From Phlegmacium glaucopus (lineage: Eukaryota; Basidiomycota; Agaricomycetes; Agaricales; Cortinariaceae): DNA of 64,000 nucleotides. A model generated the notes under the pieces. That model saw only the letters and a list, made by a program, of their open reading frames with translations, did no database searches and was not told the origin of the DNA. This document shows, piece by piece, positions 1-64,000 of this stretch. Position 1 is the first letter of the stretch; the number at the start of each line of letters is the position of its first letter. The position numbers and the translations under genes are program-made. Location: the NCBI GenBank assembly GCA_015039465.1, contig MU130240.1:121287-185286 (forward strand). The letters run 5' to 3'.

Positions 1-24
1 TAATGTTTCAAACAACCAACTCAC

Positions 25-1656
25 CGGCGTTGAAGTGTTGAATACAGCAGATCGCCAGGTCTTCGTGAACAAGGATCTGATCTAGAAAGTATCTTCCTGA
101 GCGGTACCGATCAGCAAGAAAATCAGTAAACGATGCATGAATGCCAAAATGATGATTATCATCTGAAGGAGCATCTAAAACAGAATGTAGATCACTGAGT
201 GCAAGGTAGACGTCACCCTTCTGGAGTGAAAGGAACTCTTCCATGAAGTGGGGACTCCTGATGACTTGGAAAAGATCGACGATCGGGATAGGTAGTTCTG
301 GGTATAGTAATAAGCCCAGGACTCGAGAGGTGAGGCCGAAATCCTGGACAGAAGATAAGATGTGCTTGTAGAGATTATCGAGTTCTGTGAATGGGGCTTC
401 ATCTTCGACGGATTTAAGACCCAATATCACGTTAAGCCGATCTGTAGGTCGATGTCGATGAGAGTCTACGTATTTGATAACTGTAGACGCATAGATGAAT
501 TGACCCGATGATATTTTAACCAATTCTTCGATCGCTTCGATCGAAGGCCACGGGTCTGGAATAGCAAGTTTCAACGGATGCTTATCGCGTATTTCCCTGA
601 ATCGGATGGAAAGAAATTCTCTGATGTCGGCGTCTGGACGATAGGTATCGTCCAAAGGGATACTAATCAAGCTACCTTTGAATTGGTCGTCCTGGAAAGC
701 GGCTCGAATGTGATATTCCGCACGACTAGCGAACAGGATGGCGAAAGGAAGTTTATAGTGTAAAATGAGTTGGGAAAAAACGTGAATGATTGAGGTTTGT
801 GCTCTGGAGTCTTGGCACTCGTCAAGTCCGTCAATCACGATTAGCCGTGGTCGGGTTTCAGAGGAAAGATTTGTAGATATCTTTGAGAATGGTTCAACGA
901 TTAAAGACTTTACTTGCATCTCAACAGAACGAGACAACAAAGATGGATCATCTTCGATGGCCTTCTCAATGTGAGGTTTTGCTTCAGGGAATGATACGGC
1001 AATCTGATATGCAATCGTCGCAACGAGGCGTTTGTCGTCGTTCCGGCCAGGTATCGATCTGGAGAAGAAAAATGTGCCTATGAGAAGGCCGAGTTCGAAG
1101 CATAGCTCTGCGATTGATTGGGCAATTGCTGACTTTCCTGCCCCCGCTGGGCCGTAAAGCCACATGAGATCAGGAGATGATGGATCTAGGTCTTTGATCC
1201 AATCCATTATCTTTTGGAGTATGATGAGGCGAGTGCTAGGGTGACATTTCGGTGGATCGAAGCGTTCAGCAGAGTTGTGAAAAGCGCCTTGAGCGACAGA
1301 CTCGAAGAGGAAATCGAAGCCTGAACGTTTGAACACAAATGAGTGGATTTTGACTTAGAATAGGAGAATATGGTAAAGTTCACCCACCAGAACGCTTCTG
1401 GCTATGAACATGATATCCTCCCTGGACGTCAAGGAACGTTCCTCCCTTAACACATACGCTAGACCGGGCGAACATGGGAGGGGATATGAGGACTTGTAAC
1501 GGTTGGTTGACAAACAAGGCGTGACGGGGAGATGCAGAGCCTCAGCGCCGATCGTGAGAAGGGGTACTCTGCATGTTTCGACAAGTTTGTTCGTACAGCC
1601 ACGATCCTGACCAAGGTCCATTCAGATTGTGCGCTATTTTTGGCCTTTCCAGTCAT
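25..1656 (-). CDS. NACHT P-loop NTPase (NLR-like), partial at window edge (copy N1)
   Basis: NACHT NTPases are STAND-type signalling switches; fungal members act in non-self recognition and programmed cell death. The main exon (25-1320) is open throughout and carries Walker A GPAGAGKS and a Walker B-like LIVIDGLDEC about 100 residues later. An upstream exon (1388-1458) joins in frame across a GTGGGT...TTCAG intron (1321-1387), and a plausible first ATG lies at 1656, although the exact first exon is uncertain. At the low end the coding frame meets a canonical GTGAGT donor at 24-19, so the gene very probably continues outside the window; the TGA at 8-10 is inside that intron. C-terminal repeats are therefore unseen. 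This is the only NACHT copy here with an uninterrupted NTPase domain. Family call is strong; biological role is inference. Confidence 0.85.
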
Positions 1657-2193
1657 TTCAAAGTTGTTCCCGAAAGTGGCGAAGATGGACGGATGGACGA
1701 ATGGATGACGTGAAAAGCCAAGTAAAGAGCCCACATCTCTGAATACAGAAGGAAAACCCGATATCAATAAAGGTATGCCCAGCGACAATGGAAGGGAAAA
1801 AATGCAAGTATTAACACAAACAAGGAGAAGCCACCGCATAGATGTTTTTTTTTGAGATTTCAGAAAAAGGAGAGTAAGTTATGATTAGCTTGTGAATGTT
1901 TAACGACTGGAGGGGTGGCCAATACCTGGCCAAGAAACCTATATTGACTGCGATTAAAATCTAAAAGGAAAACGGTTTTTATCAAAAATATGGCACTGTG
2001 TGTGTGTCAAGCACATACGAGTTTGTTAATCATAGTATCTGATCTAAATAAGAGGAAGAGTGATCAATATGATAAGAGCTGATTTTTTATTAAGCGACGG
2101 TGGAACTTGCCTGTGAAAGCCAGTGCGAGAGAGGTGTAGAATGATGCAAAGGGTAGCCGCAATAAGCACGTTGCCAGCTGCAGCCGGCGCCTG

Positions 2194-2324
2194 ATATAAA
2201 AACGCAACATCGGTCTCCGAACTCAAGGTGCCTTATTCACTTCTCCTCTACTATCTTCGGAGACCGATGTTGCGTTTTTATATTGGTCAAGGGTCTGTCC
2301 TGACAGGACAGACCCTTGACCAAT
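2194..2324. repeat. Two adjoining inverted repeats (27-bp arms, then 21-bp arms)
   Basis: 2194-2220 and 2257-2283 are perfect 27-bp inverted arms around a 36-bp loop. 2282-2324 is a 43-bp palindrome with perfect 21-bp arms around one central base. The 36-bp loop is in the opposite orientation in the homologous right arm (about 63188-63226), so this segment has flipped or was copied by template switching. Confidence 0.85.
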
Positions 2325-2384
2325 CATGACCTCGTCAATTAAAGTCAAGTCACGTCACACCCGGATCATGAACATGCCTCAATA

Positions 2385-2683
2385 GAACCACTGCGGACCA
2401 GTCTGGACCGTAACCGAACTGCGGTCCTGAGGTTACTATCAGGTCCGGTCTCGGGTTCTTTTCTAACCGGACTTTCAAAGACCATCTGTATCTGTTAACG
2501 GCTTCGAACGCGTTCTATATGGATGCAGACGTGCGAGTAGGGCTTGTAGAGCAATGGAAATACCTATATGACATTGACAGTAGTAGCTTTTGGGACCGTA
2601 TAAAAACTGTATAAAAGGGCTGACGGTACACGAAAGAATACTCATCTCCTCTCCTCTCCAAACCATCCTCAAAGCCAAATCAA
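2385..2683 (+). promoter_or_regulatory. Conserved promoter block of the 8-Cys peptide family
   Basis: A block beginning with ACCAGTCTGGACCGTAA and rich in GGTCCGGTCTCGG/AACCGGAC repeats, followed by TATATGACATTGACAGTA, a TATA box (TATAAAAG at 2610-2617) and the leader GGTACACGAAAG, recurs upstream of the other peptide genes (around 4440-4718, 7040-7363, 8960-9285, and reversed at 60119-60480 and 62800-63100). The TATA box is about 80 bp before the ATG. Conservation of this order in all six copies supports a shared core promoter; the upstream motifs as factor sites are inference. Confidence 0.65.
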
Positions 2684-2689
2684 ATGGTC

Positions 2690-2947
2690 ATGAAGCTCTC
2701 CTACTTCATATGTGTATTCACTATGATAATTGCATCTCATCAAGTAGCCGCGGTTTCGGTTCCATGCACAATCGACACCGACTGCTCGAAGGTGACCTGC
2801 ACAGGAAAACTTTGTGAGGCATCATTTTGCTGGACAAACGGGACCTGTAGTCCCCCCAGGTGCGTTGGCGTAACTCAGGATTGCCCGGTAAGTGGTATTC
2901 TTATGGTATTTAGATGAGCGAATTTACTAACAATCTGCTCTCAGTGA
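2690..2947 (+). CDS. Small secreted 8-cysteine peptide, copy A
   Basis: No named family recognised. Residues 1-21 of the product form a signal peptide (MKLSYF... ending VAA), followed by a mature part of about 45 residues with eight cysteines and no CC pair, ending Cys-Pro. Coding is 2690-2887 and then a 57-nt GTAAGT...CTCAG intron (2888-2944), after which the first codon is the stop TGA (2945-2947). An in-frame ATG six bases upstream (2684) exists only here and in copy F; the 2690 start is the one conserved in all copies. If the intron is retained the product gains a short tail. The 3' end faces a NACHT relic on the other strand. Probably disulfide-stabilised and secreted; function unknown. 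Confidence 0.8.
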
Positions 2948-3044
2948 ACACGAATTAAATGCCAGAAAGAAGAGAGATGAATGGACCGGAAGGAAAGAGG
3001 GAGTAAAGGCGACTGGAGGATGTTAAATGCAATAGTCGAATTCA

Positions 3045-4022
3045 TCAATTCTGTAGTGGAAAGTCTGGACCGAAGATAAGACGTGCTTGTAGACTCTAGA
3101 GATTATCGAGTTCCGTGAATGGGGCTTCATCGTCGACGCATTTAAGACACAGTATCGCGTTAAGCCAATCTGTAGGTCAATGCCGATGAGAGTTTACATA
3201 TATGAAAACAGTAGATGCATATATGGATTGACCCAATGATTTTTCGACAAATACTTCGATCACGTCGATTGAAGGCCTCTGGGATAAAAGGTTTCAAAGA
3301 ATGCTTATCGTGTATTTCCTGAATCGAATACAAAGAAATTGTCCGATGTCGGCATCTGGACAATAGCAATTGTCCAAAGGGGAACTAAGCAAATCATTTT
3401 GAATTGGTCGTCCTGGAAAGCGGCTTGAATGTGATATTCCGCACGAATAGCGAAGAAGATTACAGAAGGAAGTTTATAGTGTAGTGTTACAATGAGTTGG
3501 GAACAAAAAGTGGATGATACTCGCCGAACCCGTCGACCATGGATTAGCCGTGGTCGTGTTTCAAGGCATCGAGGAAAGACCTGTAAATATCTTTGAGAAT
3601 GGTTCAATGATTACGGCCTTTGCTTGCGCTTCAAGGGAACGAGCTAACAAAGATGGATCATTTTCCATGGCCTTCTCGATGTAAGGTTTTGCTTCAGGGA
3701 ACGAGATGGCAATCTGATATGCAATTGTCGTCGTTCAAGCCGGGTATCGAGCTGGAGAAGAAAAAATGGAAGGCCGAGTTTGAAGCACAACTCTGCGATT
3801 GATTGGGCAACTGTTGACTTTCCCGCCCCCGCTGGACCGTAAAGCTACATGAGATCTGGAGACGATGGGTCTAGATCTTTGATCTAAGCCATTATCTTTT
3901 GGAAGATGGCGAGGCGAGTGCTAGGAACACATTTTGCTATATAAAAGCGTTCAACAGAGTTGTGAAAAGCACCTTGAGCGACGAACTCGAAGAGAAAATC
4001 GAAGCCTGAACGTTTGAACACA
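3045..4022 (-). pseudogene. NACHT NTPase relic N2
   Basis: Reverse-strand matches to N1 run from the exon start (near 4016) down to the Leu-rich segment near 3050. Walker A GPAGAGKS is still readable near 3815-3840, but a TAG replaces a tryptophan codon just before it, several frameshifts follow, and part of the 3' end is deleted. No long frame survives. It lies tail to tail with peptide gene A, as in the other cassettes. Confidence 0.8.
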
Positions 4023-4718
4023 AACGCGCGGATTTCAATTCAGAACTGGATAATCACTCTGTATATGTATATAGTTAACAATAGGAGAAGTGAATAAGGC
4101 ATCTTTGAGTTCGACGAGTTGAGCGAAAGTTTTGAAATGAAGTCTTACAAAGTCAGTTTAGGAGCTAGTCGGTGACCAGTTGAAGTTCAAGTTGACTCGA
4201 GTCACTCGACAAGTTGGTCACGGAGTACCAATCCACACCACGTGATGATAAGCGCACATTGTATTACTATCACCCGAGCACAGGGTGGGATGGTAGGCAA
4301 AGAGGAAAAGCAATAGAAGGGTATTTTGGGCTATTTTTGGACCGCTCGGCTCAAGCCGAGCTCTGCCAACACGTCGGACGCAGGACAGAATCTCGTCAAT
4401 CAAACTTTCAAAGGTCAAGTCATGACAAACCTGCAGTCGGAACCAGTCTGTACCGTAAAATCGGTAACCGATTTTGAAAGACTATTTATAATCCATAAGC
4501 CCAGGCATTGACGGCTTTGATTCCATTTTTCCTGCGACCCATTACTTGCCGGCGCATTCTATATGAATGCAGACATGTGAGTGGGACTTGGAGAGCAAGT
4601 AGTAGTTTTTGTGGGACTGTGTTAAAACTGTATAAAAGGACCGAGGGTACACGAAAGAGCACTCATCCCCTCTACTAGTAAATCAAACCTAACACTGTCA
4701 AAGCCAAATCAAATCGTC

Positions 4719-4978
4719 ATGAAGCTCTCCTACTTCATATGCGTATTTTCCATGATAATTGCATCTCATAAAGTGGCTGCACTTTCATGCACAACCAACG
4801 CCGATTGCTCGAGGGTGCTCTGCCCAGGCCCGGTAGCCGAAAGACTTTGTGAGGAATCACGTTGCTTGAGTGGGACCTGTAGTGCCCCCACATGCGTTGG
4901 TTTAACTCAGGATTGCCCGGTAAGTGTTATTTTATGGTATTTAGATGAGCGAATTAATCAACAACCTGCTCTCAGTGA
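4719..4978 (+). CDS. Small secreted 8-cysteine peptide, copy B
   Basis: Signal peptide nearly identical to copy A (MKLSYFICVF...VAA), then a mature peptide with the eight conserved cysteines and a four-residue-longer loop between Cys3 and Cys4. Exon 4719-4919, intron 4920-4975 (GTAAGT...CTCAG, 56 nt), then the stop TGA at 4976-4978 with no coding in exon 2. TATA box and leader as in copy A. The stop lies one base from the reverse-strand stop of NACHT relic N3 (TCAGTGA, 4972-4978). Function unknown. Confidence 0.8.
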
Positions 4979-6120
4979 ACAAGAATGAAATACCAGAAAC
5001 AAGAGAGATGAACGGACAGGAAGGAAAGAGGGAGTAAAGGCGACAGGAGGATGCCAAATTCGATAGTCGAATTCAGTAATTCTGTAGTGAAAACAACAAA
5101 GTGGTGACTCCTGATGACTTTGAAAAGATCGACGATTGGGACATGTAGTCCTAGGTATAGTAGTAAGCCCAGAACTCGGAATGTGAGGCCGAAATTCTGG
5201 ACCGAAGGACAGATGCGGTTGTAGAGATTATCGAGTTTTGTGAATGGGGCTTCATCGTCGACCCATTTAAGACCCAGTATCACGTTAAGCCGATCTGTAG
5301 GTCGATGTGGATGAGAGTCTACATATTGGAAAATTATAGATGAATTGACCCGATGATTTTTCGACCAATTCTTCGATCGCTATCGAAGGCCACGGGTCTA
5401 GAATATAAAGTTTCAACGTGTGCTTATCGCGTATTTCCCTGAATCGGATAGAAATAAATTCTCTGATGTCGGCATCTGGACAGTAACTGTTGTCCAAAGG
5501 GATACTAAGCAAGACATTTTTAATTGGTCGTCCTGGAAAGCGGCTTTAATGTGATATTCCGCACGAATGGCGAGCAGGATGGCGAAAGGAAGTTTATAGT
5601 GTAACATGAGTTGAGAACAAAAAGTGGATGATTGACGCCCGTGCCTAGGCACTCGTCGAGCCCGTCAATCATGATTAGCCGTGGTCGTGTTTCAAGGCAT
5701 CGAGGAAAGACCTGTAGATATCTTTGAGAACGGTTCACGGTTCAACGATTACAGCCTTTGCTTGGGCCTCAAGGGAACGAGACAACAAAGATGGGATGTG
5801 GTTATGCTTCAGGGAACGAGATGGCAATTCGATATGCAATTGTCGCAACGACACGTTTGTCGTCAGGTATTTACCTGGAGAAGAAAAGCCGATTTTGAAG
5901 CATAATTCTGCGATTGATTGGGAACTGCTGACTTTCCTGGCCGCAAAGCCACATGAGATCAGGAGATGATGGGTCTACATCTTCGCTCCAAGGCATTATC
6001 TTTTTGAGGATGGCGAGGCGAGTGCTAGCATGACGTTTTGGTAGATCGAACTGTTCCAAAGAGTTGTGAAAGCGCCTTGAGCTTGGACTCGAGGAGAAAA
6101 TCGAAGCCTGAACATTTGAA
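4972..6120 (-). pseudogene. NACHT NTPase relic N3 with acquired hydrophobic tail
   Basis: Reverse-strand homologue of N1 broken by frameshifts: 5871-6125, 5413-5738, 5285-5512 and 4972-5283 carry successive parts. The Walker A motif is destroyed by a small deletion near 5930-5945. After the segment ending in RSHHF the sequence leaves the N1 path and reads a new hydrophobic tail (PLLPLSFLSV...FILVH) ending one base from the stop codon of peptide gene B. The same tail occurs in N5, N6 and N7. Confidence 0.8.
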
Positions 6121-6249
6121 CACAAACACGCGGATTTTGAGTCAGAATAGGAGAATGAGGTACAGTTTACTCACCAGGACACTTCTTCTGGCCATGAACC
6201 TCCCTGGACGTCAAAGATCGTTCATCCCTCAACACATACGCTAGACCGG

Positions 6250-7040
6250 GTAAACGATATGAGGACTTGCAATGGTTGGTTGACAAACAATGCGTGACTG
6301 CCTCAATGCCGCCACCAACTACCGCGAACGCCAATATTCCGAGTCCTCTTACCATAACTCGTGCAGTTGTTGAGCTCACCCCACGTTCCTAGACTACGGG
6401 GCTTGTCGAAGAACGCAATATTACCGCTTGGCGCTCTATCCAGACCAACTCATCGACAGAGGGTCCATCTTTGGCGAGGTTGTCTTGAGGGTCTTCGTTG
6501 TCATGGACTACGCCGTGAAATGTGTTGCTCAATACGATGTGGTGTATGAGGATAGTAGCATGGACGAAGTCCACGTTATTAACCCTGATACATTGCTAAT
6601 GGCCACTGGGGCAAGAGTCAATGATTACGAATAATGTAGCGCACGTTGCTCAAATGTTCAAATGTTGCTACCACTTCTTTATTCAAATGCTTTTTTTGAC
6701 TTTCAGTTTTTCACACAGTTCTGTTTATAATATAACGCCTGTCATCTTTTCTTCGTACGGTCTGCTTCAGGAGTTGCGTTTATGGTGCCAGCGCGAAGAG
6801 AGGGAATGGCAAGGGTTCTTGTAACCGTATTTCAATAAGCCACTTCACGGTTGTGATATCTTTTAATGCAAAACTCGTTATCCTGGACTTTTTTCGCTTA
6901 TGCTGATATTCGTTTTAGATTCCTCCAGAGCGTTTAAAATTTATGAATTAACGTGACAAATAGCTGATTTAATACTGAAATAAGTGAGCGAGGAGAATCC
7001 TTGGGAATGGATATGTCACATGACCTCAACCCCCATCGTG
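6250..7040. other. Intercassette spacer with an unidentified coding fragment
   Basis: An open frame at 6428-6634 (+) encodes about 68 residues beginning MALYPDQLID and ending with a stop; it resembles a piece of an ordinary enzyme-like sequence but I do not recognise the family, and no splice partners are evident. This fragment is absent from the other cassettes. 6640-7040 is AT-rich with no gene seen. Confidence 0.35.
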
Positions 7041-7363
7041 CTAGGAACCAGTCTGGACCGTAAAGAAGCTATAATTGAACTGCGGTCCTGACCGGTTACT
7101 GTTAGGTCCTCGGTTTTTTCTAACCGGAGGCGTTAACAGCTTCGATTTCATTTTTCCTGTGATCCATTACTTGCCGGCGCGTTCTATATGGACGCAGACG
7201 TGTGAGTGGGAGTGGGACTTGGAGAGCAATGTAGATACCTATATGACATTAAGAGGTTTGTGGGACTGCGTCAAAACTGTATAAAAAGGCTGATGGTACA
7301 CGAAAGAACACTCATATCCTCTCTAAATCCAACCTACTATTCTCAAAGCCAAATCAAATCGTC

Positions 7364-7612
7364 ATGAAGCTCTCCTACCTCATGAGCGTATTCATTATGT
7401 TAATTGCATCTCATCAAGTAGCTGCACTGGCATGCACAACCGACGCCGATTGCACGAGTTTGACCTGCACAGGAAGACTTTGTGAGCCGGCATTTTGCTT
7501 GAGTGGGACCTGTCGTCCCCCCAAATGCGTTGGCCTAAATCAGGCATGCCCGGTAAGTGGTGCTTTTATGGTATTTAGATGAGTGAATTTATTAACAATC
7601 TGGTCTCAGTGA
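7364..7612 (+). CDS. Small secreted 8-cysteine peptide, copy C
   Basis: Same architecture: signal peptide (MKLSYLMSVF...VAA), eight cysteines in about 42 mature residues, Cys-Pro end. Exon 7364-7552, intron 7553-7609 (GTAAGT...CTCAG, 57 nt), stop TGA 7610-7612. A TATAAAAA box lies about 80 bp upstream with the shared GGTACACGAAAG leader. Mature residues differ from A and B mainly between the cysteines. Function unknown. Confidence 0.8.
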
Positions 7613-8330
7613 ACAAGAATGAAATACCAGAAAGAAGAGAGACGGGCGGACAGGAAGAAAAGAGGGAGTTCGAGGCGACGGGAGGATGTCAAATTGGATA
7701 GTCGGATTTATCAATTCTGTAGTGAAAACAATAAAGTGGGGACTTGTGGTGACTTTGAAAAGATCGACGCTTGGGGCAGTTAGTTCTGGCTATAGTAGTA
7801 AGCCAGCACTCGAGATGTGAGGTCGAAATTCCGGACCGAAGATAAGATGTACTTGTAGAGATTAATGAGTTCTGCGAGTGGGGCTTCATCTTCGACGCAG
7901 TTAAGAACCAGCATCATGTTAGGCCAATCTGTAGGTCGATGCTGATGAGAGTCTACATATCTGATAATGGTAGATGATAGATGAATTGACTCGATGATTT
8001 TTGAACCAATCTTCGATCGCTTCCACGGGTTGAATATAAATGATGTCGGCGTCTGGACAAGGACTTCCCTATGTGAGGTTTTGCTTCAAGGAACGACGTG
8101 GCAATCTGATATGCAATCGTCACAACGAGGTTTGTTGTCGTTTAGGCCAGGTATCGAACTGAAGAAGACAATGAATCTAGGTCTTTGATTCAAGCCATTA
8201 TGTTTTGGAGGATGGCGAGGTGAGTGTTAGGGTGACAGTTTGGTGGATTGAGGCATTCAGCAGAGTTGTGAAGTGCGCCTTGAGCGACCGACTCGAAGAG
8301 AAAATCGAAACCTGAACGTTTGAACATAAA
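7613..8330 (-). pseudogene. NACHT NTPase relic N4
   Basis: Short reverse-strand fragments of N1: the exon start near 8310-8330, a small piece of the mid-domain near 8030-8160 and the 3' Leu-rich part at 7689-7900. The P-loop region is deleted. It is the most eroded of the longer relics. The spacer 8331-8960 repeats NACHT 5'-flank sequence and otherwise holds nothing recognisable. Confidence 0.7.
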
Positions 8331-9285
8331 CACGCAGGTTTTGATTCAGAAAAGGAGAATACGGTGAAGTTTACTCACCAGGACGCTTCTGGCCATTAAC
8401 GTGATATTCCTGACGTCAAAGAAAGTTCATCCCCTAAAATAACACATATGCTAGACTGGGCGAACATAGGAGGGGATATGAGGCCTTGCACGATGGTTGA
8501 CGAACAATGCGTGACTGCCTCAAGGCTGCCTGTGGTAGGGAGATCCAGAGAGATTTGACGCCTCTAAGTGTCAATCATGAAAAGGTATACCTGCACGTTC
8601 AGCAAGGTACAGCCAAGGTCCTGGCGTCCGAAGCGCCATCTTTAGCCTTTCCACCCATTCCAAGGTCGTTCCCGAAACTCACAGAACGACGTTCAATGCA
8701 GCAATTGTTTCGAGGGCATTACAGTAACTTGCAAATGGTTTTTTTTTGCACAACGAAATTCGCAGCGCAGCGTTTGATATGACTGTTGGCAAGTGACTAA
8801 GGGTGGACAGGAGTTCCAGCTCAGCTCAAAAATAGCTCGGCTGGTCGGCTCATCGGCTCCGAGCCGTTGGCGAGGACAAACGAAATAAATGATCATCATA
8901 AATTACAAGTCAAATTTTCCGTGATGAAGCTCGTTTTCTTTTGTAAACCCCTGGGTCAGAATAGAACCAGTCTGGTAACCGGACTGCGGTTCTGAACGGT
9001 TACAGTCAGGTCCGGTCTCGGTTTGTTTTCAGTTTTCTAACCGGACGTTCAAACATCATAGCAAGCGATCCAAAAGTGATCAGTATTTCTTGCCATGCCG
9101 GTGCGTTCGATATGAATGCAGACATGTGGGACTTGCAGAGCAATGTAAATACCTATATGACATTGACAGTAGGAGGTTTTGTGGGATTGTGTCAAAACTG
9201 TACAAAAGGGCCAAGGGTACACGAAAGAGCACTCATCCTCCTTCCTAAACCAAACATAACATTGTCAAAACCAAATCAACCCGTC

Positions 9286-9531
9286 ATGAAGCTCTCCTAC
9301 TTCATAAGCGCATTCACTATGGTAATTGCATCTCATCAAGTAGCTGCACTTTCATGCACAACCACCAGCGATTGCCCAGGCTGCATTACAGGAAGACTTT
9401 GTGAGTCACCGTTTTGCTCGAGTGGGACCTGTATTCCCGCGGTGTGCGTCCCCTTAAATCAGAAATGCCCGGCAAGTGGTATTTTTATGGTATTTATATG
9501 AGCGAATTTATTAACAATATGGTCTCAGTGA
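9286..9531 (+). CDS. Small secreted 8-cysteine peptide, copy D (GC donor)
   Basis: Signal peptide MKLSYFISAF...VAA and eight cysteines, with a shortened Cys2-Cys3 loop (CPGC). Exon 9286-9471; the intron 9472-9528 has a GCAAGT donor where the other five copies have GTAAGT; stop TGA 9529-9531. GC-AG introns are spliced in fungi, but if not, the frame would read on to a TGA at 9499-9501. The longer open frame beginning near 9076 is promoter DNA, not coding. Stop is one base from that of NACHT remnant N5. Confidence 0.75.
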
Positions 9532-9725
9532 ACAAGAATGAAATACCAGAAAGAAGAGGGATGAACGGACAGGAAGGAAGAAAGGAGTAAAGGGGACGGG
9601 AGGATGTCAAATTGGATAGTCGGCTTCATCAATTCTGTAGTGAAAACAACAAAATGGGGACTCGTGTAGACTTTGAAAAGATCGACGATTGGGACAGTTA
9701 GTTCTGGGTATAGTAAACTGTTTGG
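9525..9725 (-). pseudogene. NACHT 3' remnant N5
   Basis: Only the last part of the cassette NACHT (LLYPELTVPIVDLFKV plus the hydrophobic tail ending FILVH) remains. Homology stops abruptly near 9720, which marks the edge of the left array. 9726-10140 is the P450 5' flank with no gene seen. Confidence 0.75.
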
Positions 9726-10150: not shown

Positions 10151-10191
10151 AAAGTTCACCAGGGCCAAGGCCTTTCCTCCCTCCACTGACT

Positions 10192-12372
10192 ATGAATTGG
10201 TCCCTGATAGGTCTTCTGGGGACTCATCCCTACCACACGCTGGCTGCATTACTTTTCGGCTGCATATTAACAAGGCAGTTGAAGAGGAGTAGAAACCATA
10301 ATCCAAACGGTCTTCCCCTACCACCAGGGCCCAAAGGCTATCCGCTGATCGGTAACCTCTTTGATATGCCGATCGATAAGCCTTGGCTCGTCTACGAAGA
10401 ATGGTCTAAGACTTACGGTAAGCTTTTTATGATGTATGGCCCCCTGTTGTGGATATTATTTAGTAGCTGGATATTTTAGGTGATATAATGTACTTCAATG
10501 TTCTTGGCCAGCACTTTTTGGTTCTGGGCTCCAAGGAAAAGACCAACGACCTGTTTGATAAAAGGTCTTCAAATTACTCAGACAGAATGCATATGCCTAT
10601 GACGATGGACCTGTATGTATAATATTCATTTCACCTCGAAGGGATTTGTCAAAAATATCTATTGCAGAATGCGTTGGGATTTCGCCATGACCTTTCAGCG
10701 TTACGGCGCGCGGTGGCGAAAACACAGGAAAATATTTCACGAATATTTTCATCCTAACGTGGTGTCCAAATATCTACCTGTTCAAAGACAAGAGGTCCAT
10801 GCTTTTTTGCGCCGACTACTTGCCACACCCGAAGAGTTTCTCCACCATATTGAACAGTACGTATCATGCTTGGTCCATGACTTTGCTGCAGGGGAAGGGC
10901 GCTAATAGATGATCTGGAAAATAAGCACATTTTCTGCTACCATCATGAAAATCACATATGGAATTGATATTCAAGAGTCTCACGATCCCTACGTCTTGCT
11001 CGCCGAAGAAGCCATGAGTGGATTTAACCAAGCCTCGATCCCTGGAACCTTCTGGGTAGACTTATTTCCTCCCTTGAAGTATATACCAAGCTGGTTTCCA
11101 GGTGCAGGTTTCCAAAGGAAAGCTGCATACTGGAGAGGTGTTAACGCATCTATGGCCGAAAAACCTTTCAGTTATGTGAAAGAACAATTGGTACGAGATT
11201 ATTCTTTTCGAGAATTCATGAGCTTTTCAAACAATTATTCTGCAGAAAATTGGCAAAGCTCCACCATCCATGGTAGCAAACCTCATTGAACGTCTTCCTG
11301 GTGAGGACGATCCTCAACGGCCCACGGAGGAAGGGGTTGCGCGAAACGTGGCTATTCTGGCCTACATAGGTCAGTGGCAACACAAATGGACTCTAAATGG
11401 ATGACTCCCTTACTTCTTTATCACCTTTCTATCAGGCGGTGCTGATACCGTAAGTGGGAAAAAAAAAAAAAACACCAAATTGTTAATAACTTGTTAATTG
11501 GACACGCATAATTAGACAGTCTCAACAGTGAAAGCGCTATTCCTGGTGATGGCACTACATCCGGAAGTCCAGAAGAAAGCCCAAGCAGAACTCGACGCTG
11601 TGGTAGGCCCAAATCGCCTCCCAAATTTTGAAGATCGTCCTTCTCTGCCATATATCGATGCTATTCTCCAAGAATCGATGCGTTGGCATTTAGTAACGCC
11701 TCTTTGTAGGCCTTTTTATCATCATGGTTATGAATATCCTGAACGGTTTCCAAGGTGTTCCCCACATGGCTACTAACGACGATGAATATGACGGTTACTA
11801 TATTCCCAAAGGGACAGTCGTGTTCCCTAATGCATGGCCAGTACAAACGATTACTCTTATTTTCTGTCCTTACTTTGTTGTTTAGGTCCATGTTGCACAA
11901 CCCTGAAGTCTTTAGCGACCCCATGGAATATAGGCCTGAACGGTTTCTAAAGGATGGGAAACTCAATCCCGATGTGATGGACCCAAGATCTGTGGCATTT
12001 GGTTTTGGACGCCGGTCAGTAGATCCAACATATTCTGCGACGTACATCTCATAGAATATTTTCTCCCCCAGTATTTGTCCTGGAAGACACTTCAGTGACA
12101 ACGCCTTATACTCAATTATATCTTGCCTTCTTGCAGTCTATGACATCAAACCGCCAGTTAACGACCATGGCAATATCATCAAGCTCAAACCCGAGTTCAC
12201 CAGTGGAATACTGTCGTAAGTTGCTAAGAACGATTATATAAATACAAGTAACAGGTTAGCCTGAAACCTCTTTGCCCTTGATAGGTACCCCGTCCCCTTT
12301 AAGTGTATTATCAGCCCTCGATCGCCTGCGGCCGAAGCGCTAGTCGGGGACTCTGTTAATGAAGATGGTTGA
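10192..12372 (+). CDS. Cytochrome P450 monooxygenase (O-methylsterigmatocystin oxidoreductase-like)
   Basis: Haem-thiolate monooxygenase, probably ER-anchored and using NADPH-P450 reductase; substrate unknown. Exons that keep frame throughout: 10192-10417, 10480-10612, 10668-10856, 10926-11190, 11246-11369, 11436-11449, 11516-11705, 11755-11836, 11886-12014, 12072-12215, 12285-12372 (1584 nt, 527 residues, the usual length). The N-terminal anchor is followed by the proline hinge LPLPPGPKGYPLIGN. The I-helix GGADTT straddles a 14-nt micro-exon, the K-helix ESMRW corresponds to ExxR, and FGFGRRICPGR is the haem ligand loop. The eighth intron has a GC donor (GCCAGT, 11837). No stop or frameshift was found, so the gene looks functional. 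Family assignment is firm; the CYP subfamily is not assigned. Confidence 0.9.
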
Positions 12373-12599: not shown

Positions 12600-14310
12600 G
12601 CTTCGATATATGTGATGTGACATGAGTTATGGATCACGATATATGAAGTATGGTTTCGACCGACCCAAGCGACGGTTTCCAATCACGCGTCACCAGCGTA
12701 GGTAAGCTGTGACGGTCCCAAGCCGCTCACGCTGCTCACTCCCATCCGGACGCACTCTGGCACCAGCTCGGCTCGCGCTCACACTCTCGACTCTCTGCTG
12801 CTGATCTCAGCCTGTCACTGTCCGTGCACACGCGACGCGACGTAAAGCCCAAAAGCAAGCTGGATCAGGTACATCCCTGGATCATCCAGGGATGTAACCT
12901 GGAACCGAACAAAAAAAGGAACCGAACAGGAATAGGGCTCGGGCTCAGATGCGATGCGACGAAAGATGTGGATTCGGACAGGGGACAAGACCATGTCACA
13001 CCTCCGTAAGTTGGATGACTTGGATTTGAATCGACTACTTATCCACAATTGACATAGAGCACTCAGAACAAAGCAAAAAAAAGTCGCTGCGCAATGGCAA
13101 CGGCACTCACGCAAGAGGAGCGAACCGATCCTCGGTTAAGTGGGAGGATGCCAAGAGTCCTCCTTCCTCGATCAAGGTCTTGACGTATGTCATCAAGCTG
13201 GCTCTGGCTAGTGGTAGTAGGTAGTAGTGAAGAGGATGGTGATCAGTAAAGGACTGGCATCAACAGGAGGGGCCAATTGAGAGCAGCAGTGAGTTCAATG
13301 CATAAACTTATATATTGCCTGCCACTGATAGTACACGAGGCAGAATTGCCAATCTCTCGAAAGTGAGGCGTCATTTAATTTTGAGTGCGTTACATACACC
13401 TGCCAAGGTATGAAGGTATGTTCCTGCCATTATTATATGTAGCCGAATGTACCGCCAAGTGGAACCTGATTCAAGAACTGACCCAGCTCTGTCACGTCCA
13501 TCTGACCCTGCCCAGAACGGGCATTTCGCCAACTCGCTCAAGCCCGATGCTCTGGGATTGCTAGCAAAAGGTTCGCCCATCAAAATATGAAGCTGTCACG
13601 AAGGCTAAAAATGACAGTTCTTAGCCCACCATGCCTGTTTTCTTGCGGAGGAATGACGGTTGACTGAGGAGAAGAGACGGTTTCTTTACAATTTCAGGCT
13701 GCCACAAATGCAGAACGGTAGTTCTCGCCTCTGTCCTGGCTCAGCAAGCTAGCTCCGTCAGGTAAGCCCCTTGATCATTCCACCCTTCACTACTAATACG
13801 TGTGCTTGTAGCTCCTTGCTTCCTGGTCTCAAGGAAGCTCTAGATCCCTCAACCACAAGTCTTTCCTCGCGCCCCAGGTCTTTCCCCACCTTATCACTGT
13901 CACCACTCTCCCACCTTCCTTGCCTGACTGGTTCCACCTGGCCCAGCAGCTCCGGGCCAGTTCCAAGTCGTCACAGCGCAGGTGAACCTCATCCAATGCC
14001 AGCCCCTGCAAATCCGAGGCTGTTTCCTAAATGCTTGCTGCGTCGACGAGCAATCCACCATTGGCAGTCACAAACCCATCAGAAGCCCCTGTGGCCGTGC
14101 CCGATCCTCATCGGCAACAGTCAGTTCATCAACAGGCTTCCTAGCTCTCTGAAGCGTGAGTTAGATGTCCTTGTGCACAAAAACCTATTAATTTAATAGC
14201 CGAATCATTTGTCTTTAGTCATATGAAACATGTATGAAAACGAACATAAGACGCGCATCGTCTTTCAGCTTCCTTTATTCACCTCTCTCTCTCTCTTTGC
14301 CCGACATCAC
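12600..14310. other. Spacer without a confident gene
   Basis: No homologous protein recognised. A perfect 12-bp-arm palindrome (ACATCCCTGGAT, c, ATCCAGGGATGT) sits at 12871-12895. Ser/Pro-rich open frames at 13771-14196 could be 5' leader of the recombinase element or chance. Confidence 0.4.
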
Positions 14311-14318
14311 ATCATCAC

Positions 14319-16105
14319 ATGCCTACCCAATGCCGTCAGCTCCCCGCTATCTCGCCGCTGGACTTGCCTGCGTTTGCAGGTATTCCCGGTTCTACGAAAA
14401 TTGACAGGATAGGCGAGATCGAGGACAGTGACATCGCTGTGGACATGGAAGACGAGCAAGGCACCGTTCCAGACCTTGCCGAAGAGGATTTAATTGAAGT
14501 TGATGATGGAGAAACACTTGTCGGCTTGCCATCGCAATGGTCTGACACAATTACGGGGGCCTCAAAAGCAGTATCAGAGCGTACTGAGAAGGGCTATCAG
14601 CGGTAAGCCCTAACCTTTGCTGGCTTCTTTCTCGGCCTTTCCGTTTTGATATTGATATTGATATTGATACCGATCTCACTCTGTAGCCTCGTGGATGCAT
14701 GCATGTCCTTCCTGATTTCAAAGAACTTAATCAAGACAAAGGAAGAATTCTTATGCAAGAGTCCACCTCAGGATTCTGCGCGATTCATTATTGCTTGGAT
14801 AATGAATGAGTGAGTTCTATACCTGTACCTGTAACCGCCTCATCGAGGAGTCGAGACTAACAACTTTTGAAGATGTGACAGTTGCAATCTTGATGGGAGC
14901 AACAAAAGTTCGTCTACAATCCGGAGCGGCTATACGCATGCCCAGAAAATGCGTGCCGCTATGACCTATGCATTCGGTAGGCTTTATGGCTGTGGCAACC
15001 GGTCCTGGCAAATGGATGAATCCCAGGGAGTGATGGTCGGAAATCCATCCATTTCTACTGAGGTTTCCAACTACATGCTTGCTTTACACCGCCGTAAGGT
15101 CAGGACCTTTTCTTGACTGTCTGACTTCATTTTACTGGTACTTAGGTTCAGGGAGGTGAAACCTCCACCAGCGCTCGTGCGATGACACCAGTGAGTAAGC
15201 TCAAGGTTCTTGCCTGTCCTTCATCTTTTCACACAGTGTTTAGGGAATGATGGAGAAGCTGTACGACTTCAACCATCAAGCTGAGCTTTGGGAGGTCGGA
15301 AAATGCGCACCAAACAGTCGGAACGCTGGTTCATGGGGGGGGCCGTTCCACCGTCGGCTGGTTCAGGCTGTCTATACGATTTCATACTTGTGTTTGCTTC
15401 GCATTGATGAGGTCCTGAAAATTCGCAGGGAACATATTAAATTAGAGGAGGAGGGTAAGGTCACTCTGACACTGCCCTTCCGTAAGACACATCAGTTTGG
15501 AGGTAAATATTTTATGTGAATTATATGTATATGGATAAGTTGCTTACTTATCTATCATCTTGTTGTAACGGTACAGATATCAAGCCATTTGTTCTGTACC
15601 CTCTCGGTCCAGAAGAAACTTATCTGTGCCCCGTTTGTGCCTTGGCTGACTGGATACACACCTCGAAGATCACCTCTGGCTTTCTGTTTCGCCAGCTGGC
15701 TGCTGGTAGACCTGCTGAGAGAGATAGCGCGGTGGTAGGTTTGCTTCTTTCATCCTCTTAAATTTGGTATGAGTCCTTATCTTTTCTTTTTTTTCGGAGA
15801 CATCTGCCCAGTTTCTAGAGATGTTCCGTCGCAACCTCACTGAGATCGAGGTCGACTTCACCCCTTACGGAACACATTCCTTTCGACGAGGAGGATGTCA
15901 GTACCTAGCATCAGTTCGACGCTGGCTTCTTCGGAGGATCTGTGAGTGGGGTGGCTGGAGTACAGAGTTCTCTAACATGACAATTGTAAAGTACCTGATT
16001 TCCTGGAGTGACGACCCAACGGAATCCCGGGATGAGTTCTTCAACCCAAAATGTATTGCTACAGTTAGGTGCCCTCACTGTGGAAGGTCTTGTTGTTGCT
16101 CATAG
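14319..16105 (+). CDS. Crypton-like tyrosine recombinase
   Basis: Predicted DNA breaking-rejoining enzyme that would mobilise its element through a phosphotyrosine intermediate. Several exons join in frame (introns near 14603, 14810, 15100, 15200, 15502 and 15736). After an acidic N-terminal region comes a helical core-binding part and then the catalytic domain: box I arginine in CLLRIDEVLKI, the HxxR motif in GTHSFRRGG, and a candidate nucleophile tyrosine in IVKYL about 60 residues later. All key residues are present and no internal stop was found. It ends in a Cys-rich tail (CPHCGRSCCCS). It is convergent with the SAP-like gene, 114 bp away, which suggests a two-gene mobile element. Family is a fair call from the catalytic pattern; activity is inference. 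Confidence 0.75.
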
Positions 16106-16219
16106 TTGCTTGTAGATTATATGAATTAGTATTATTTTCCATTAGAAAATGTATGTGGGTAATTAGAATAGCAAGCAAATGACTACCGTAATGAATGAAT
16201 GACTACTGCTCTCGCTCTC

Positions 16220-17863
16220 TCACTCAGCCTGTAATTTTTGATACATCCTCGCGATGTCGGCTGGCTTACACATGACGTGCACTTGCCCATTCTTCCTGTA
16301 GACGAAGGTGGATGCAAAGCTATCACCGTACTCTTTCTTTGCCTGCTCGGTAAGCCGACTGTTCTCTTCTACCCGCAGAGCTTTGAGCCGGTTGATGATT
16401 GCTGTGTAATTCATTCTGGTTCCTGTCGAATCACTGAACTCCTTCCAGAAATTGGCCTCAGATCCTTCACGCCATCGCTGGACAATGTACTGTATTTGTA
16501 GGCTCATCAGGAAAGTAGACTGGCGGGTGTTAAAAAATCATAAAGACAAACCTTCCATTCAGAATGACGTGATTTCAACACGTTCCACTGCCTTGACTTC
16601 CAAGGTCCGTCAACTTTTGAGCTTGCATAAACAAATGGCCAATACACGATGGCGATGGGAACATCCTTGATGTGCAAGGCTGACTGTCCATCCCAATTTG
16701 TCGATGTGTCGTCCCACATCCGGTTGAGTCGAGGCAGATCGTCAGCAAATGTTGGCGCAGGTGGAAATGGGACGTCATCCGGAGTGAATGTGAGAGTGGT
16801 GTTATTTCCGAGTGTAAGGGTGCGTGCTTCAGGTGAGGAGATCGTCATGGCTTGGGACTCCTCTTGAATGTTCTCAGGTGGTGATTCCGATTCGGGCTGA
16901 GGCTCGACAAATGTTGTGCTGGCAGCCGAAGAATATCGAGGGGTTGGGGTACTTGCAAGAAGCACTGGTAGAACACATTGATATGGTCCCTTGATGATGG
17001 CCTTTATCTCATCGAAACCACTGTTGATGGTGTCGTTGAGCGCAGATGTGTTCTGTTTTAAAAAAAGAAAGATAAGGTAAGAAAAAAAAAGAATACACGG
17101 TACTCACCACATGTCGGCCAGCTGCCTGGGCTCGATACGCATCACGGGCTGGCTTGTTCATGTGAGGGAACCTTTTCAGTATGTTGTTTGCCTGGGTTTA
17201 TTAACCGGTCAGTAAATGGGAGAAAGCAAGATATGTGTCATGCATAACTTACCCAATCGAGGTCAGCCTTGCCATTGACAACTTGCGATGCAGCAAGTTG
17301 TACGGCCTGCGTCGGGAGCATTGCTGGTGCACGAGGCACAGCCTGTTGTTGACCGGGGAAATGGCTCTCTGCAAGGGATGCAGACGGCTTCTTGGAAGTC
17401 CTCTTGCTGCCGATTCGGGGACCTCTGTGTGTGCGACGAGCTCCGGGAAGGATGCTATTATATATATATATATATATAGTAAGTAACGACAATATAACAA
17501 ACGACAAATGTAATGATTGTCAAAAGAAACACATGTACGCACCGATCCCATGCAGCCTGATTCCGACTAAACGTGCGCAGCTCGTTCTTGAGGGCTTTCT
17601 TGTTGCCAGAGTAGTGCAGGCCGAATCCACGGCACCAGTCTTTGAGGGTCGTCTTGTCCTGCTTGTTTCTGGGCAGAAAATCAAAATCAGCTGAAGTAAG
17701 TGGGCGGCATCGTCACGTCAGGATAAGGAAAAGGGACGACTCACATGTCCAGGAGCCAGGTCTCCATCTTGCCATCCACGACATGTGGGAACGGCATCGG
17801 CTCCTCCTTGATGTCTACGTCCATGGGATCATCACCACGGCCACCGTTGCAGCAGGAGTCCAT
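16220..17863 (-). CDS. SAP-like DNA-binding protein, companion of the recombinase
   Basis: Start at 17863 (MDSCCNGGRG...). Exons splice in frame through introns near 17700, 17500, 17230, 17080 and 16530. Near the N-terminus KDWCRGFGLHYSGNKKAL followed by LKNELRTFS resembles a SAP helix-extended-helix DNA-binding motif. A basic linker, a Ser/Pro-rich region and a conserved C-terminal part (DDTSTNWDGQS, FWKEFSDSTGTRMNYTAI, EYGDSFASTFVYRKNG) follow. I recognise this C-terminal pattern as recurrent in agaricomycete genomes but know no function. One intron contains the (TA)n run at 17458-17478. The convergent recombinase suggests a DNA-targeting or regulatory partner; that is inference. Confidence 0.65.
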
Positions 17864-18454
17864 TATGGAATTTATTGTGCCTGGCTGTTTGCGAACGAGG
17901 CAGAAGAAGCAGGAGATCGAGATTGATGTTATCGCGAGAAAACCGAGGGCAAGGACAAAGCCCAGGTGAAGGTGAAGGTGACGAGCCTGATCAGGATCAG
18001 GAGCTCGAGCGATGTCGACAGAGCTGCTGCTGTCGTCGGTGCTGGCCAGAATCGGGGTCGTAGTAGTCTTGGCCTCGATCCCGATCACACTCACCGCCGT
18101 CGAGGCGCCATGTTCCGTCCTGCTCTGGCAGTGATCTAATTGAAAGGGGACGGGGGGCATCAGCAAGCCGAACTGAGCCGACGGCGGACGAAGGCGTCCA
18201 AGGCAAACAGGGGCAAAAGCGCCCAAATTGGGCCAAGGCCCGTCCCCGGAACCGAACTACGGTTCTGCCGAGGCCTGAGCCAGTTCCGCATCCCACGTGA
18301 CTCGGCCAACCGTCAAGATCTCAACAGAAGTGTTGGGCGGTGCAGCATTATGTAAGGTTTACCTATGATGTATGCATTTTCCCACGGTTCATTGTCCCAA
18401 CCAACCGTTGCACTGCATGTAAAACCAGCGAGTCAGACACCAGCGCCATTCCTG

Positions 18455-34896: not shown

Positions 34897-35399
34897 GAGA
34901 TTGTTCAAGCTGTAGTGACAATTATATACTGATGTGGAACGAGCAAGTGGCTTCTGAGGTAGGATGGGGATTGACTTGAGTGCGCACAGGGAGCATTCAA
35001 ATGACCTGAGTAGTGGTCTAACCAAGAAGGAACACGGATGTCTTTAGGGCTCTGTGAAGGCCCCGGGAAGCGCCTGATGGGTGGTGTCCACGAACTTGGC
35101 TATTTGAGGTTAGTTTTGGCGGGTCTCTTGTTCGAAAATTTGTCTATTTGGGGGCAGATTTTTGCTAAGTAATGATGACAGGGCCTCAGTACTCATTAGG
35201 TGATGCATGGTACTCATTAGGTGATGCATGAGGCCACAATATAAGGCGCAACGCTGACAGCTTGCTGTTGGATCCATCCAAGAGCAACCCAACGGGCCAA
35301 CGCGCAAACAATTACCTTTTTGGGCACGTGGCCACCTCTGTCCAAATTTGGCTATCCTAAGCCCAAGGGCGATATTTTGGCGATATTGGACAATTTCCT

Positions 35400-59059: not shown

Positions 59060-59877
59060 CTAGCATATGTGTTAAGGGAGAAGCGTTCTTTGACATCCAG
59101 GGAGGATATCACGTTCATGGCCAGAAGCGTCCTGGTGAGTAAACTTTACCGTATTATCTTATTCTGAATCAAAATCCGTGCGTTTGTGTTCAAATGTTCA
59201 GGCTTCGATTTTCTCTTCGAGTCCGTACCTCAAGGCGCTTTTCACAACTCTGCCGAACGCTTCGATCCACCAAAATGTCACCCTAGCACTCGCCTCGTCA
59301 TCCTGTTCGCTAGTCGTGCGGAACATCACATTCAAGCCTCTTTCCATGACGACCAAGTCCAAAACAGCTTGCTTAGTATCCCTTTGGACCATAGCTATTG
59401 TCTAGACGTCGACATTAGAGAATTTATTTCTATCCGATTCAGGGAAATACGCGATAAACATCCATTGAAACTTTATTTCAAGACCGTGGCCTTCGATCAA
59501 AGTGACAATCATCAGGTCAATCCATCTATGCGTTTACCGTTATCAAAGATGTAGACTCTCATCGACATCGACCTACAGATTGGCTTAACGCGAAACTGGA
59601 TCTTAAATCGCTGAAGACAGAACTCGATAATCTCTACAAACACATCTTATCTTCTGTCCAGAATTTCGGCATCACATTCCGAGTGCTGGGCTTACTACTA
59701 TACCCGGAACTAACTGTCCCAATCGTCGATTTTTTCAAAGTCATTACGAGTCCCCGCTTTGCTATTCTCGCTACAAAATTCATGAATCCGACTATCCAAT
59801 TTGACATACTCCCGTCGCCTTTACTCCCTCTTTCCTTCCTCTCCGTTCTTCTCTCTTATTTCATTCTTGTTCACTGA
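59060..59877 (+). pseudogene. NACHT relic N6 with in-frame loss of the P-loop
   Basis: The upstream exon (near 59080-59132) and main exon (from 59203) match N1, but RLVIL runs straight into FASRAEHH: the whole Walker A to Walker B segment, about 130 codons, is missing without shifting frame. The frame later breaks at 59554 and resumes at 59683-59877 with the hydrophobic tail, its TGA (59875-59877) one base from the stop of peptide gene E. Confidence 0.8.
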
Positions 59878-60118
59878 GAACAGATTGTTAATAAATTCGC
59901 TCATCTAATACCATAAAAACATCACTTACCGGGCAAGACTCAGCTCCGGTCACGCACTTGGGGGGACGACAGATCCCAGCCAAGCAAAGTGATGGCTCAC
60001 AAAGTCTTCCTGAGCAGGTCAAACTCGAGCAATCGGTGTCGGTTGTGCATGAAAGTGCAGCTACTTGATGAGATGCAATTATCATAGTGAATACGCTTAT
60101 GAAGTAGGAGAGCTTCAT
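59871..60118 (-). CDS. Small secreted 8-cysteine peptide, copy E
   Basis: Inverted copy. Signal peptide MKLSYFISVF...VAA, eight cysteines, Cys-Pro end (ESCP). Exon 59930-60118, intron 59874-59929 (GTAAGT...CTCAG, 56 nt), stop 59871-59873. The shared leader lies upstream, but the TATA position reads TACATAAAAG-like (near 60195), weaker than in the other copies. The open frame upstream of 60118 is leader DNA. Function unknown. Confidence 0.8.
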
Positions 60119-61189: not shown

Positions 61190-62545
61190 AAGGGAGGAGC
61201 GTTCTTTGATGTCCAGGGAGGATATCATGTTCATAGCCAGAAGCGTCCTGGTGAGTAAACTTTACCGTATTATCCTATTCTGAATTAAAAACCGCGTTTG
61301 TGTTCAAACGTTCAGGCTTCGATTTTCTCTTCGAGTCCGTCGCTCAAGGCGCTTTTCACAACTCTGCTGAACGCTTCGATCCACCAAAATGTCATCCTAG
61401 CACTCGCATCGTCATCCTCCAAAAGATAATGGCTTGGATCACGAGAAGCGTTCTTTGACATCCAGGGAGGATATCATGTTCATGGCCAGAAGCGTCCTGG
61501 TGAGTAAACTTTACCGTATTATCTTATTCTGAATCAAATCCGTGCGTTTGTGTTCAAACGTTCAGGCTTCGATTTTCTCTTCGAGTCCGTCGCTCAAGGC
61601 GCATTTTGGATCAATATCTAGATCCATTCTGATCTCATGTGGATTTACGGCCCAGCGAGGGCAAGAAAGTCAGCAATTGGCAGAGCTATGCTTCGAATTC
61701 GGCCTTCTCATTGGCACCCTTTTCTTCTCCAGCTCGATACCTGGAAAGGATGAAGACAAACCGCCTCGCTGCGACGATTGCGTGTCAGATTGCCATCTCG
61801 TTCCCGGTGAGACCACGGCTAATCATGATTCACGGGCTCGACAAATGCCAAGACGCCAGAGCACAAACCTCAATCATCCACTTCTTTTCCCAACTCATTT
61901 TACACCAAAAACTTCCTTTCGCCGTCCTGTTTGCTAGCTGTGTGGAATACCACCTTCAATCCGCCTTGCAGGACGACCAGTTCAAAAATAGCTTGCTTAG
62001 TATCCCTTTGGACAACGTCTATTGTCCAGATGCCGACATCAGAGAATTTATTGCTATCTAATTCAGGGAAATACGCGATAACCATCCGTTGAAACTTTAT
62101 ATTCCAGATCCGTAGCCTTCGATCGAAGCGATCGAGGAATTGGTCAAAAAATCATCGGGTCAATACATCTATGCATCTACTGGTATTAAATATGTAGACC
62201 CCCATCGCAATCGACCTCCAGATCGGCTTAACATGATACTGGGTCTTAAATGCGTCGAAGGTGAAGTCCCATTCACAGAGCTCCATAATTTCTACAAGTA
62301 CATCTTATCTTCGGTCCAGAATTTCGGCGTCACATCCCAGCAAGTGCTGGGCTTACTACTATACCCAGAACTGACTGTTCCAATCGTTGATATTTTCAAA
62401 GTCTACGAGTCCCCATTTTGTTGTTTTCACTACAGAATTGATGAATCCGACTATCCAATTTGACATCCTCCCGTCGCCTTTACTCCTTCTTTCCTTCCTG
62501 TCCGTTCATCTCTCTTGTTTCTGGTATTTCATTCTTGTTCACTGA
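61190..62545 (+). pseudogene. NACHT relic N7 with internal partial duplication
   Basis: The upstream exon, its intron and the first part of the main exon occur twice (about 61198-61360 and 61443-61602). The Walker A region reads GPARARKS, then frames shift several times (61639-62061, 62140-62463). It retains LIMIHGLDKC at the Walker B site and ends in the hydrophobic tail next to peptide gene F. A TAA in EFIAI and other breaks exclude a full product. Confidence 0.8.
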
Positions 62546-62792
62546 GAGCAGATTGTTAATAAATTCGCTCATCTAATACCATAAAAATACCACTTACCGG
62601 GCAATCCTGAGTTACGCCAACGCACCTGGGGGGACTACAGGTCCCACTCAAGCAAAATGATGCCTCACAAAGTTTTCCTGTGCAGGTCACCCTCGAGCAA
62701 TCGGTGTCGATTGTGCATGGAACCGAAACCGCGGCTACTTGATGAGATGCAATTATCATAGTGAATACACATATGAAGTAGGAGAGCTTCAT
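62539..62792 (-). CDS. Small secreted 8-cysteine peptide, copy F
   Basis: Nearly identical to copy A, of which it is the inverted-repeat counterpart: same signal peptide and cysteine spacing, differing mainly by LSG for WTNG before Cys6. Exon 62598-62792, intron 62542-62597 (GTAAGT...CTCAG, 56 nt), stop 62539-62541. An in-frame ATG at 62798 also exists. TATAAAAG box about 80 bp upstream. Function unknown. Confidence 0.8.
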
Positions 62793-64000
62793 GACCATTT
62801 GATTTGGCTTTGAGGATGGTTTGGAGAGGAGAGGAGATGAGTGTTCTTTCGTGTACCGTCAGCCCTTTTATACAGTTTTGATACGGTCCCAAAAGCTACT
62901 ACTGTCAATGTCATATAGGTATTTCCATTGCTCTACAAGCCCTACTCACACGTCTGCATCCATATAGAACGCGTTCGAAGCCGTTAACAGATACAAATGG
63001 ACTTTGAAAGTCTGGTTAGAAAAAAACCCGAGACCGGACTGACAGTAACCCTCAGGACCGCAGTTCGGTTACCAATTGTTACGGTCCAGACTGGTTCCAC
63101 AGTGGTTCTATTAAGGCATGTTTATGATCCGGGTCTGACGTGACTTGACGAGGTCATGATTGGTCAAGGGTCTGCCCCTGAGCCGAACTCAAGGTGCCTT
63201 ATTCACTTCTCCTCTACTATCTTCGGAGACCGATGTTATTATATCAGGCTCTCTCTATTCTCGTTAACGCGCCGGCTGCAGCTAGCGACGTTCTTATTGC
63301 GGTTACCCTTTGTATCATTCTACACCTTCCACCGTCGCTTAATAACGGATCACCTCTCATATTGATCACTCTTCCTTTTATTTAGATCAGATACTATGAT
63401 TAACAAACTAGTATGTGCTTGACACACACACAACGCCATATTTCTGATATAAACCTTTTCCTTTTAGATTTCAGTCGCAGTCAATATAAGTTTCTTGGCA
63501 AGGTGTTGGGCACCCCTCGAGTCGTTAAATATTCACAAGCTAATCATAACTTAGTCTCCTTTTTCTGAAATCTCAAAAACAAAAACATCTGTGCGGTGGC
63601 TTCTCTTGTTTCTGTTAGTACTTGTATTTTTTCCCTTCCATCGGACGTCGCATGTCGCTCAAATACGCATCTTAGATCGTCGTCGCTGGGCATACCTTTA
63701 TTGATATCGGGTTTTCCTTCTGTATTGGGAGATGTGAGCTCTATACTTGGCTTTTCACGTCATTCGTCCATCCGTCCATCCGTCCATCTTCGCCAATTTC
63801 GGGAACAACTTTGAAATGACTGGAAAGGCTAAAAATAGCACTTCAGGTACACAATCTGAATGGACCTGGGAGTTCGGACACCAGGATCGTGACTGTACGA
63901 ACAAACTTGTCGAAACACGCACAGTACGCTTGTCTGCATCTCCCCGTCACGCCTTGTTTGTCAACCAACCGTTACAAGTCCTCATATCCCCTCCTATGTT
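62541..64000. repeat. Right arm of the window-scale inverted duplication
   Basis: Reverse complement of 1471-2945; cut by the window end. The 36-bp segment at about 63188-63226 is in opposite orientation relative to its flanks compared with the left arm. Confidence 0.85.
63816..64000 (+). CDS. NACHT gene 5' end (copy N8), runs off the window
   Basis: ATG at 63816 (MTGKAKNS) and following DNA match the 5' part of N1 (start 1656). The NTPase exon would lie beyond 64000, so whether this copy is intact cannot be told. Confidence 0.5.
   Translation, partial: MTGKAKNSTSGTQSEWTWEFGHQDRDCTNKLVETRTVRLSASPRHALFVNQPLQVLISPPM

Follow-up and report, generated by a model that had tools for sequence, protein, structure and literature searches.

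Small genes for predicted secreted peptides alternate with NACHT sequences at both ends of a 64,000-nucleotide stretch of Phlegmacium glaucopus DNA (C83:121287-185286 in a search of the 60.5 Mb assembly; hereafter the window). The locus raises the question of whether the two kinds of gene form one recognition system or whether one of them was carried along with the other. The fungus, an agaric of the Cortinariaceae, also goes by the name Cortinarius glaucopus. The array is probably a family of secreted, cysteine-rich peptides, species-restricted as far as searched, that was amplified in tandem and in inverted orientation; its mature part appears to be under selection, and the NACHT pieces would be passengers.

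Structure of the peptide genes

The window has six peptide genes, with starts at 2690, 4719, 7364 and 9286 on the + strand and at 60118 and 62792 on the - strand (Table 1). The four + strand genes, in positions 1-9725, are spaced ~1.9-2.6 kb apart and alternate with - strand NACHT sequence, as the initial annotation had described. It had also placed an inverted cassette near the right end, giving six peptide genes in total, and this agrees with the two - strand genes, which alternate with + strand NACHT sequence. The array extends past the window, with intact NACHT copies ~12 kb to the left and just beyond the right edge. The arms of a large inverted repeat are 87% and 92% identical in two aligned parts, and peptides 1 and 6 are mutual nearest paralogues within the array.

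All six genes are built alike. The ATG is followed by a signal of ~21 residues and a mature part in which there are eight cysteines; then comes an intron, with the TGA stop immediately behind it. The precursor has 62-67 residues, of which 41-46 form the mature part, ending in Cys-Pro. The intron is 56-57 nt long and keeps its position in all six genes, with GT-AG borders in five and GC-AG in the 9286 copy. In gene 1, translation from another ATG in the same frame, at 2684, would lengthen the product by two residues. The short coding exon with the stop behind an intron makes these genes easily missed by protein searches. A hydrophobicity filter and alignment place all six among small secreted proteins (SSPs), as short open genes with an N-terminal signal-like segment.

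The signals and promoters had been described as nearly constant, which overstates the case for the promoters. Mean pairwise DNA identity among the six genes is 90.8% in the signal, whereas the 120 bp before the ATG reach 84.6%, below the intron (89.6%) and the 3' flank (87.1%), and TATAAAA occurs at most 130 bp upstream in four of the six. The mature part does vary (80.0%) and carries eight cysteines in every copy; the cysteines are not entirely fixed, however, since the third is displaced in the 9286 copy.

Probable selection on the mature peptides

The dN/dS comparison of the mature peptides that the initial annotation had proposed was run between paralogues, with codon models fitted to the six genes. 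Omega is 0.45 in the signal and 1.73 in the mature part (p=0.033 against 1), and the two differ at p=9e-6. With the cysteine columns set apart, omega is 0.45 in the signal (p=0.037 against 1), near 0 at the cysteines and 2.30 in the rest of the mature part (p=0.001), a split chosen after the alignment had been seen. In the mature part M2a is preferred over M1a on three topologies (p=0.004, 0.0004 and 0.006), and pooled pairwise counts give 0.30 for the signal and 1.17 for the mature part. The reading frame is conserved as well. Pairwise gaps, counted over pairs that are not mutually independent, have lengths divisible by three in all 22 coding cases, against 26 of 100 noncoding cases (upstream 17/72, intron 0/9, 3' flank 9/19).

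Truncation and decay of the NACHT copies

Three NACHT main exons of this subfamily are intact: the edge copy of the window (11-1336), the one ~12 kb to the left and the one just past the right edge. The edge copy scores 35.2 bits against PF05729 (cut-off 26.7) and 90.9 against NPHP3_N (cut-off 24.8) and has the P-loop GPAGAGKS. Compared with it, the other two show an excess of third-position changes (6, 5, 21 and 27, 12, 51 by codon position) and no frame-breaking indels. The two intact left copies are a direct duplication with 91% identity. The claim that only the edge copy is intact is therefore correct within the window, where all six others are broken, but two more intact copies lie beyond it.

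The six window remnants are disrupted by frame-breaking indels and/or large deletions, and five have in-register stops. Each of them, and likewise the remnant on C148, a second contig, has 2-13 indels of a length not divisible by three and 0-3 in-register stops; in several cases an artificial gap at the junction end is among the indels counted. Substitutions are spread flatly over the codon positions in six of the seven (p 0.18 to 0.96).

The remnants also share a breakpoint. In the units of peptides 2-6, five of the six in the window, and in the C148 unit, similarity to the intact NACHT gene breaks off at one place, give or take a few bases: near codon 364 of 442, or 243-251 in the coordinates of the edge copy. 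The three intact copies retain codons 365-442, and no peptide gene was found on their 3' side. This end is usual in the family, as 118 of the best 120 NACHT homologues (of 2690; two from this locus) align to codon 400 or beyond. Since the breakpoint is common and the lost end is usual, the likeliest order is that truncation and joining to the peptide gene came first and copying came after.

Extent of the pairing

A peptide search of the whole assembly gave seven matches (E 9e-42 to 5e-11), six of them in the window, and the family was located only on C83 and C148. The C148 copy, which has NACHT remnants around it, has lost its start and some of the signal. Its cassette is nearest to the 60118 unit (87% identity), and the pairing there most plausibly arose when the array cassette was copied. 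Short stretches within one cassette (6347-6817) also recur near the C148 copy.

The genome has at least 87 NACHT matches (277 candidates, 87 scored). Neighbourhoods of 20 of the 87 listed were scanned (6.4-7.0 kb each and 130,451 bases in total, with ~5 kb of each lying 3' of the domain), and none of the 20 has a small cysteine-rich, signal-like open reading frame. The filter recovered all six array genes and gave one match in 94,000 control bases from C83 and C148; because it considers only frames within a single exon, it would miss genes whose signal is split. A sensor-peptide pairing as a general rule was rejected on the basis of this sample and of the whole-assembly peptide searches.

Relatives of the peptides

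Among 5.8 billion proteins the sole relative is P0001, an annotated P. glaucopus protein that ends at the same Cys-Pro residue. It was the single candidate in a single-sequence search and the only relative among 131 candidates in a seven-row profile search, which depends on words of five residues in common and may therefore pass over relatives that are distant or unannotated. Peptide searches found no place in the assembly matching P0001; its gene sits on a 2,791-base contig, the carrier of BYT27DRAFT_6861458, that, judged by this search, is probably outside the assembly. The protein database is clustered at 90%, and the P0001 cluster has two members. The 62792 protein matches P0001 at 59 of 65 residues and so may be the second member. 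The other five peptides match at 36 to 57 of 65 and would therefore be expected as separate entries, but none appeared.

The late nodulins of plant nodules (PF07127) have a similar signal and early cysteine spacing, but the match is weak (best 23.7 bits against a curated cut-off of 30.4; best E 6e-5), and the three mature parts scanned alone gave E values of 1.3, 2.2 and 4. With a score below the cut-off and no match in the mature part, membership in this family is ruled out. A sequence search of solved structures returned four weak matches, the best (E 0.045) to an actin-complex subunit, and these were taken as chance. The structure model that includes the signal has a pLDDT of 65.7 and three matches (best E 6.6), and for the mature-only model Foldseek gave 11 matches, all with E above 0.001. 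The models are too weak for naming a fold, whether a small disulfide-rich toxin-like or defensin-like one or another.

Weighing the explanations

The passenger reading of the NACHT pieces, which the initial annotation had offered as an alternative, is supported by the shared truncation point, the decay of every peptide-linked copy in the window, the intact copies without a 3' peptide and the lack of a comparable open reading frame in the 20 sampled NACHT neighbourhoods. The annotation's other proposal, a recognition or allorecognition locus, would have two parts, with a NACHT receptor that detects or regulates the secreted peptide linked to it; this now seems very improbable. In its favour, all seven assembled peptide copies adjoin one private NACHT subfamily, whose next best relative in the genome is 50% identical; intact NACHTs that look constrained flank the array; and fungal NACHT/STAND genes paired with an adjacent partner are described in the part of the literature consulted (PMC3321046). 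However, the pairing is confined to two loci, one of them best explained as a cassette copy, and an intact NLR adjacent to its partner, as in a STAND/effector pair, is found at none of the six peptide-linked positions in the window. The partners named in the excerpt of that source are HeLo, sesA, sesB, Goodbye, NAD and UDP-phosphorylase effector-domain proteins, not signal-bearing peptides (PMC3321046). It is equally improbable that the array is a former working pair, in which constraint acted on the truncated NACHT during diversification of the peptide, and that the intact NACHTs at its flanks continue to serve with it as an allorecognition or partner-recognition locus. The hint is a codon-position bias in remnant 61280-62418 (48, 20, 55; p=0.0002), by which a truncated NACHT may have been constrained for a while.

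This bias and the complete association with one NACHT subfamily weigh against an amplified peptide family with passenger NACHTs, as do several points on the peptide side. The signal was called by hydrophobicity only. The selection sample is six short paralogues with possible gene conversion, fitted with code written for this analysis. Three phylogenetically independent pairs have 46.7 replacement changes over 289.7 sites of the mature part, compared with 62 changes over 518 sites of the intron and 3' flank, an excess that is not significant with the cysteines kept (p=0.11) and becomes so only without the cysteine codons (p=0.003), a post-hoc split. The result with the cysteines kept, the small sample and a C148 copy without a start would fit decaying or neutral peptide copies, with the excess of change in the mature part being noise. 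This is unlikely, since frame, splice sites, stop and eight cysteines are kept in all six genes while the NACHT half of the units decayed, and since the signal and the cysteines evolve slowly. If a selected, secreted peptide family is accepted, its products would be effector-like or antimicrobial. That they are antimicrobial or antifungal weapons and not plant-directed effectors is a real but lesser possibility; the small cysteine-rich mature part is suggestive, and almost every weak structural match is to a small peptide rich in disulfides, in one case an antimicrobial one.

Proposed mechanism

The amplified-family explanation may be put as a series of events. In a single event, a peptide gene would have come to adjoin a NACHT gene cut at about codon 364, and the compound unit of peptide and truncated NACHT would then have been copied, in tandem and inverted. 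The paralogues, if expressed, would each be exported by the conserved signal, and the cysteines would fix a small disulfide scaffold. The stretches between the cysteines would have been diversified by selection so as to act on changing outside targets, most likely molecules of host roots or of competing microbes.

Other features of the window

Cytochrome P450 gene pieces adjoin the array at 10153-12054. A 5.7 kb element occurs in three copies, one at 12644-18331 and the others in 67918-79307 beyond the window, with one inverted pair 99.4% identical. Its frames resemble a tyrosine-recombinase type mobile element, although Pfam gave no such match for the three frames scanned. A retroelement frame with a gag-type aspartyl protease match is at 39504-40910. 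Two related frames (33529-35025 and 53673-55313) have weak F-box-like matches below the cut-off, and a 1.2 kb stretch at 48382-49590 has an inverted, 92% identical copy beyond the right edge (~80.3-81.5 kb in window coordinates).

Table 1. Peptide genes, NACHT sequences and inverted-repeat arm of the window
Feature	Position	Strand	Details
NACHT gene, open main exon (edge copy)	11..1336	-	442 codons; 100% to annotated 466-aa P0002
Peptide gene 1	2690..2947	+	exon 2690-2887 (66 codons), intron 2888-2944, TGA 2945-2947
NACHT remnant	3059..4054	-	10 of 11 indels frame-breaking; 3 in-register stops; a deletion of its own where it meets gene 1
Peptide gene 2	4719..4978	+	exon 4719-4919 (67 codons), intron 4920-4975, stop 4976-4978
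NACHT remnant	5095..6090	-	homology stops near codon 364; 13 of 15 indels frame-breaking, with the end gap counted; 2 stops
Peptide gene 3	7364..7612	+	exon 7364-7552 (63 codons), intron 7553-7609, stop 7610-7612
NACHT remnant	7731..8350	-	large internal deletions, 2 in-register stops
Peptide gene 4	9286..9531	+	exon 9286-9471 (62 codons; third cysteine shifted), GC-AG intron 9472-9528, stop 9529-9531
NACHT remnant, short	9615..9716	-	only ~codons 343-376
NACHT remnant	59165..59760	+	large internal deletion; remaining part without in-register stop
Peptide gene 5	59871..60118	-	exon 60118-59930 (63 codons), intron 59929-59874, stop 59873-59871
NACHT remnant	61280..62418	+	internal duplication, frame-breaking indels, 2 in-register stops; codon-position bias kept
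Right arm of large inverted repeat, part	62424..64000		arms ~-1774..3062 and 62424..67261, window coordinates, aligned as -1774..3062 against 67261..62424
Peptide gene 6	62539..62792	-	exon 62792-62598 (65 codons), intron 62597-62542, stop 62541-62539; nearest array paralogue gene 1

Comparison with known systems and significance

A search of the open-licence literature found no report of tandem clusters of NACHT and secreted genes in Agaricales, nor any paper under the name Phlegmacium glaucopus. The NWD2/HET-S STAND/effector pairs, as described in the part of PMC3321046 consulted, are alike in that a NACHT-type gene lies beside a small gene; they differ from the array, where the small gene encodes a signal and the NACHT beside it is both cut short and disrupted. 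An NLR count across 22 agaricomycetes gave 72 hits per species, according to an extract of that study (PMC4986451). Measured against this extract, the NACHT matches of the P. glaucopus genome, at least 87, are ordinary in number. The intact copies are members of this large family, but the array subfamily stands apart within it and most of its copies here are broken.

In the portion of PMC7550596 consulted, Cortinarius glaucopus is treated as ectomycorrhizal, and ectomycorrhizal fungi have many species-specific SSPs as well as symbiosis-induced MiSSPs. The array peptides, as predicted from their genes, are likewise short, signal-bearing and lineage-restricted; compared with the proteins in that portion, they are arranged in tandem and inverted copies and have a diversifying mature part.

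An immune-receptor-like gene can thus seem paired with a secreted gene merely through co-copying, a caution for calling systems from gene neighbourhoods. For an ectomycorrhizal fungus, the array would provide a compact and testable set of six fast-evolving peptides that are predicted to be secreted.

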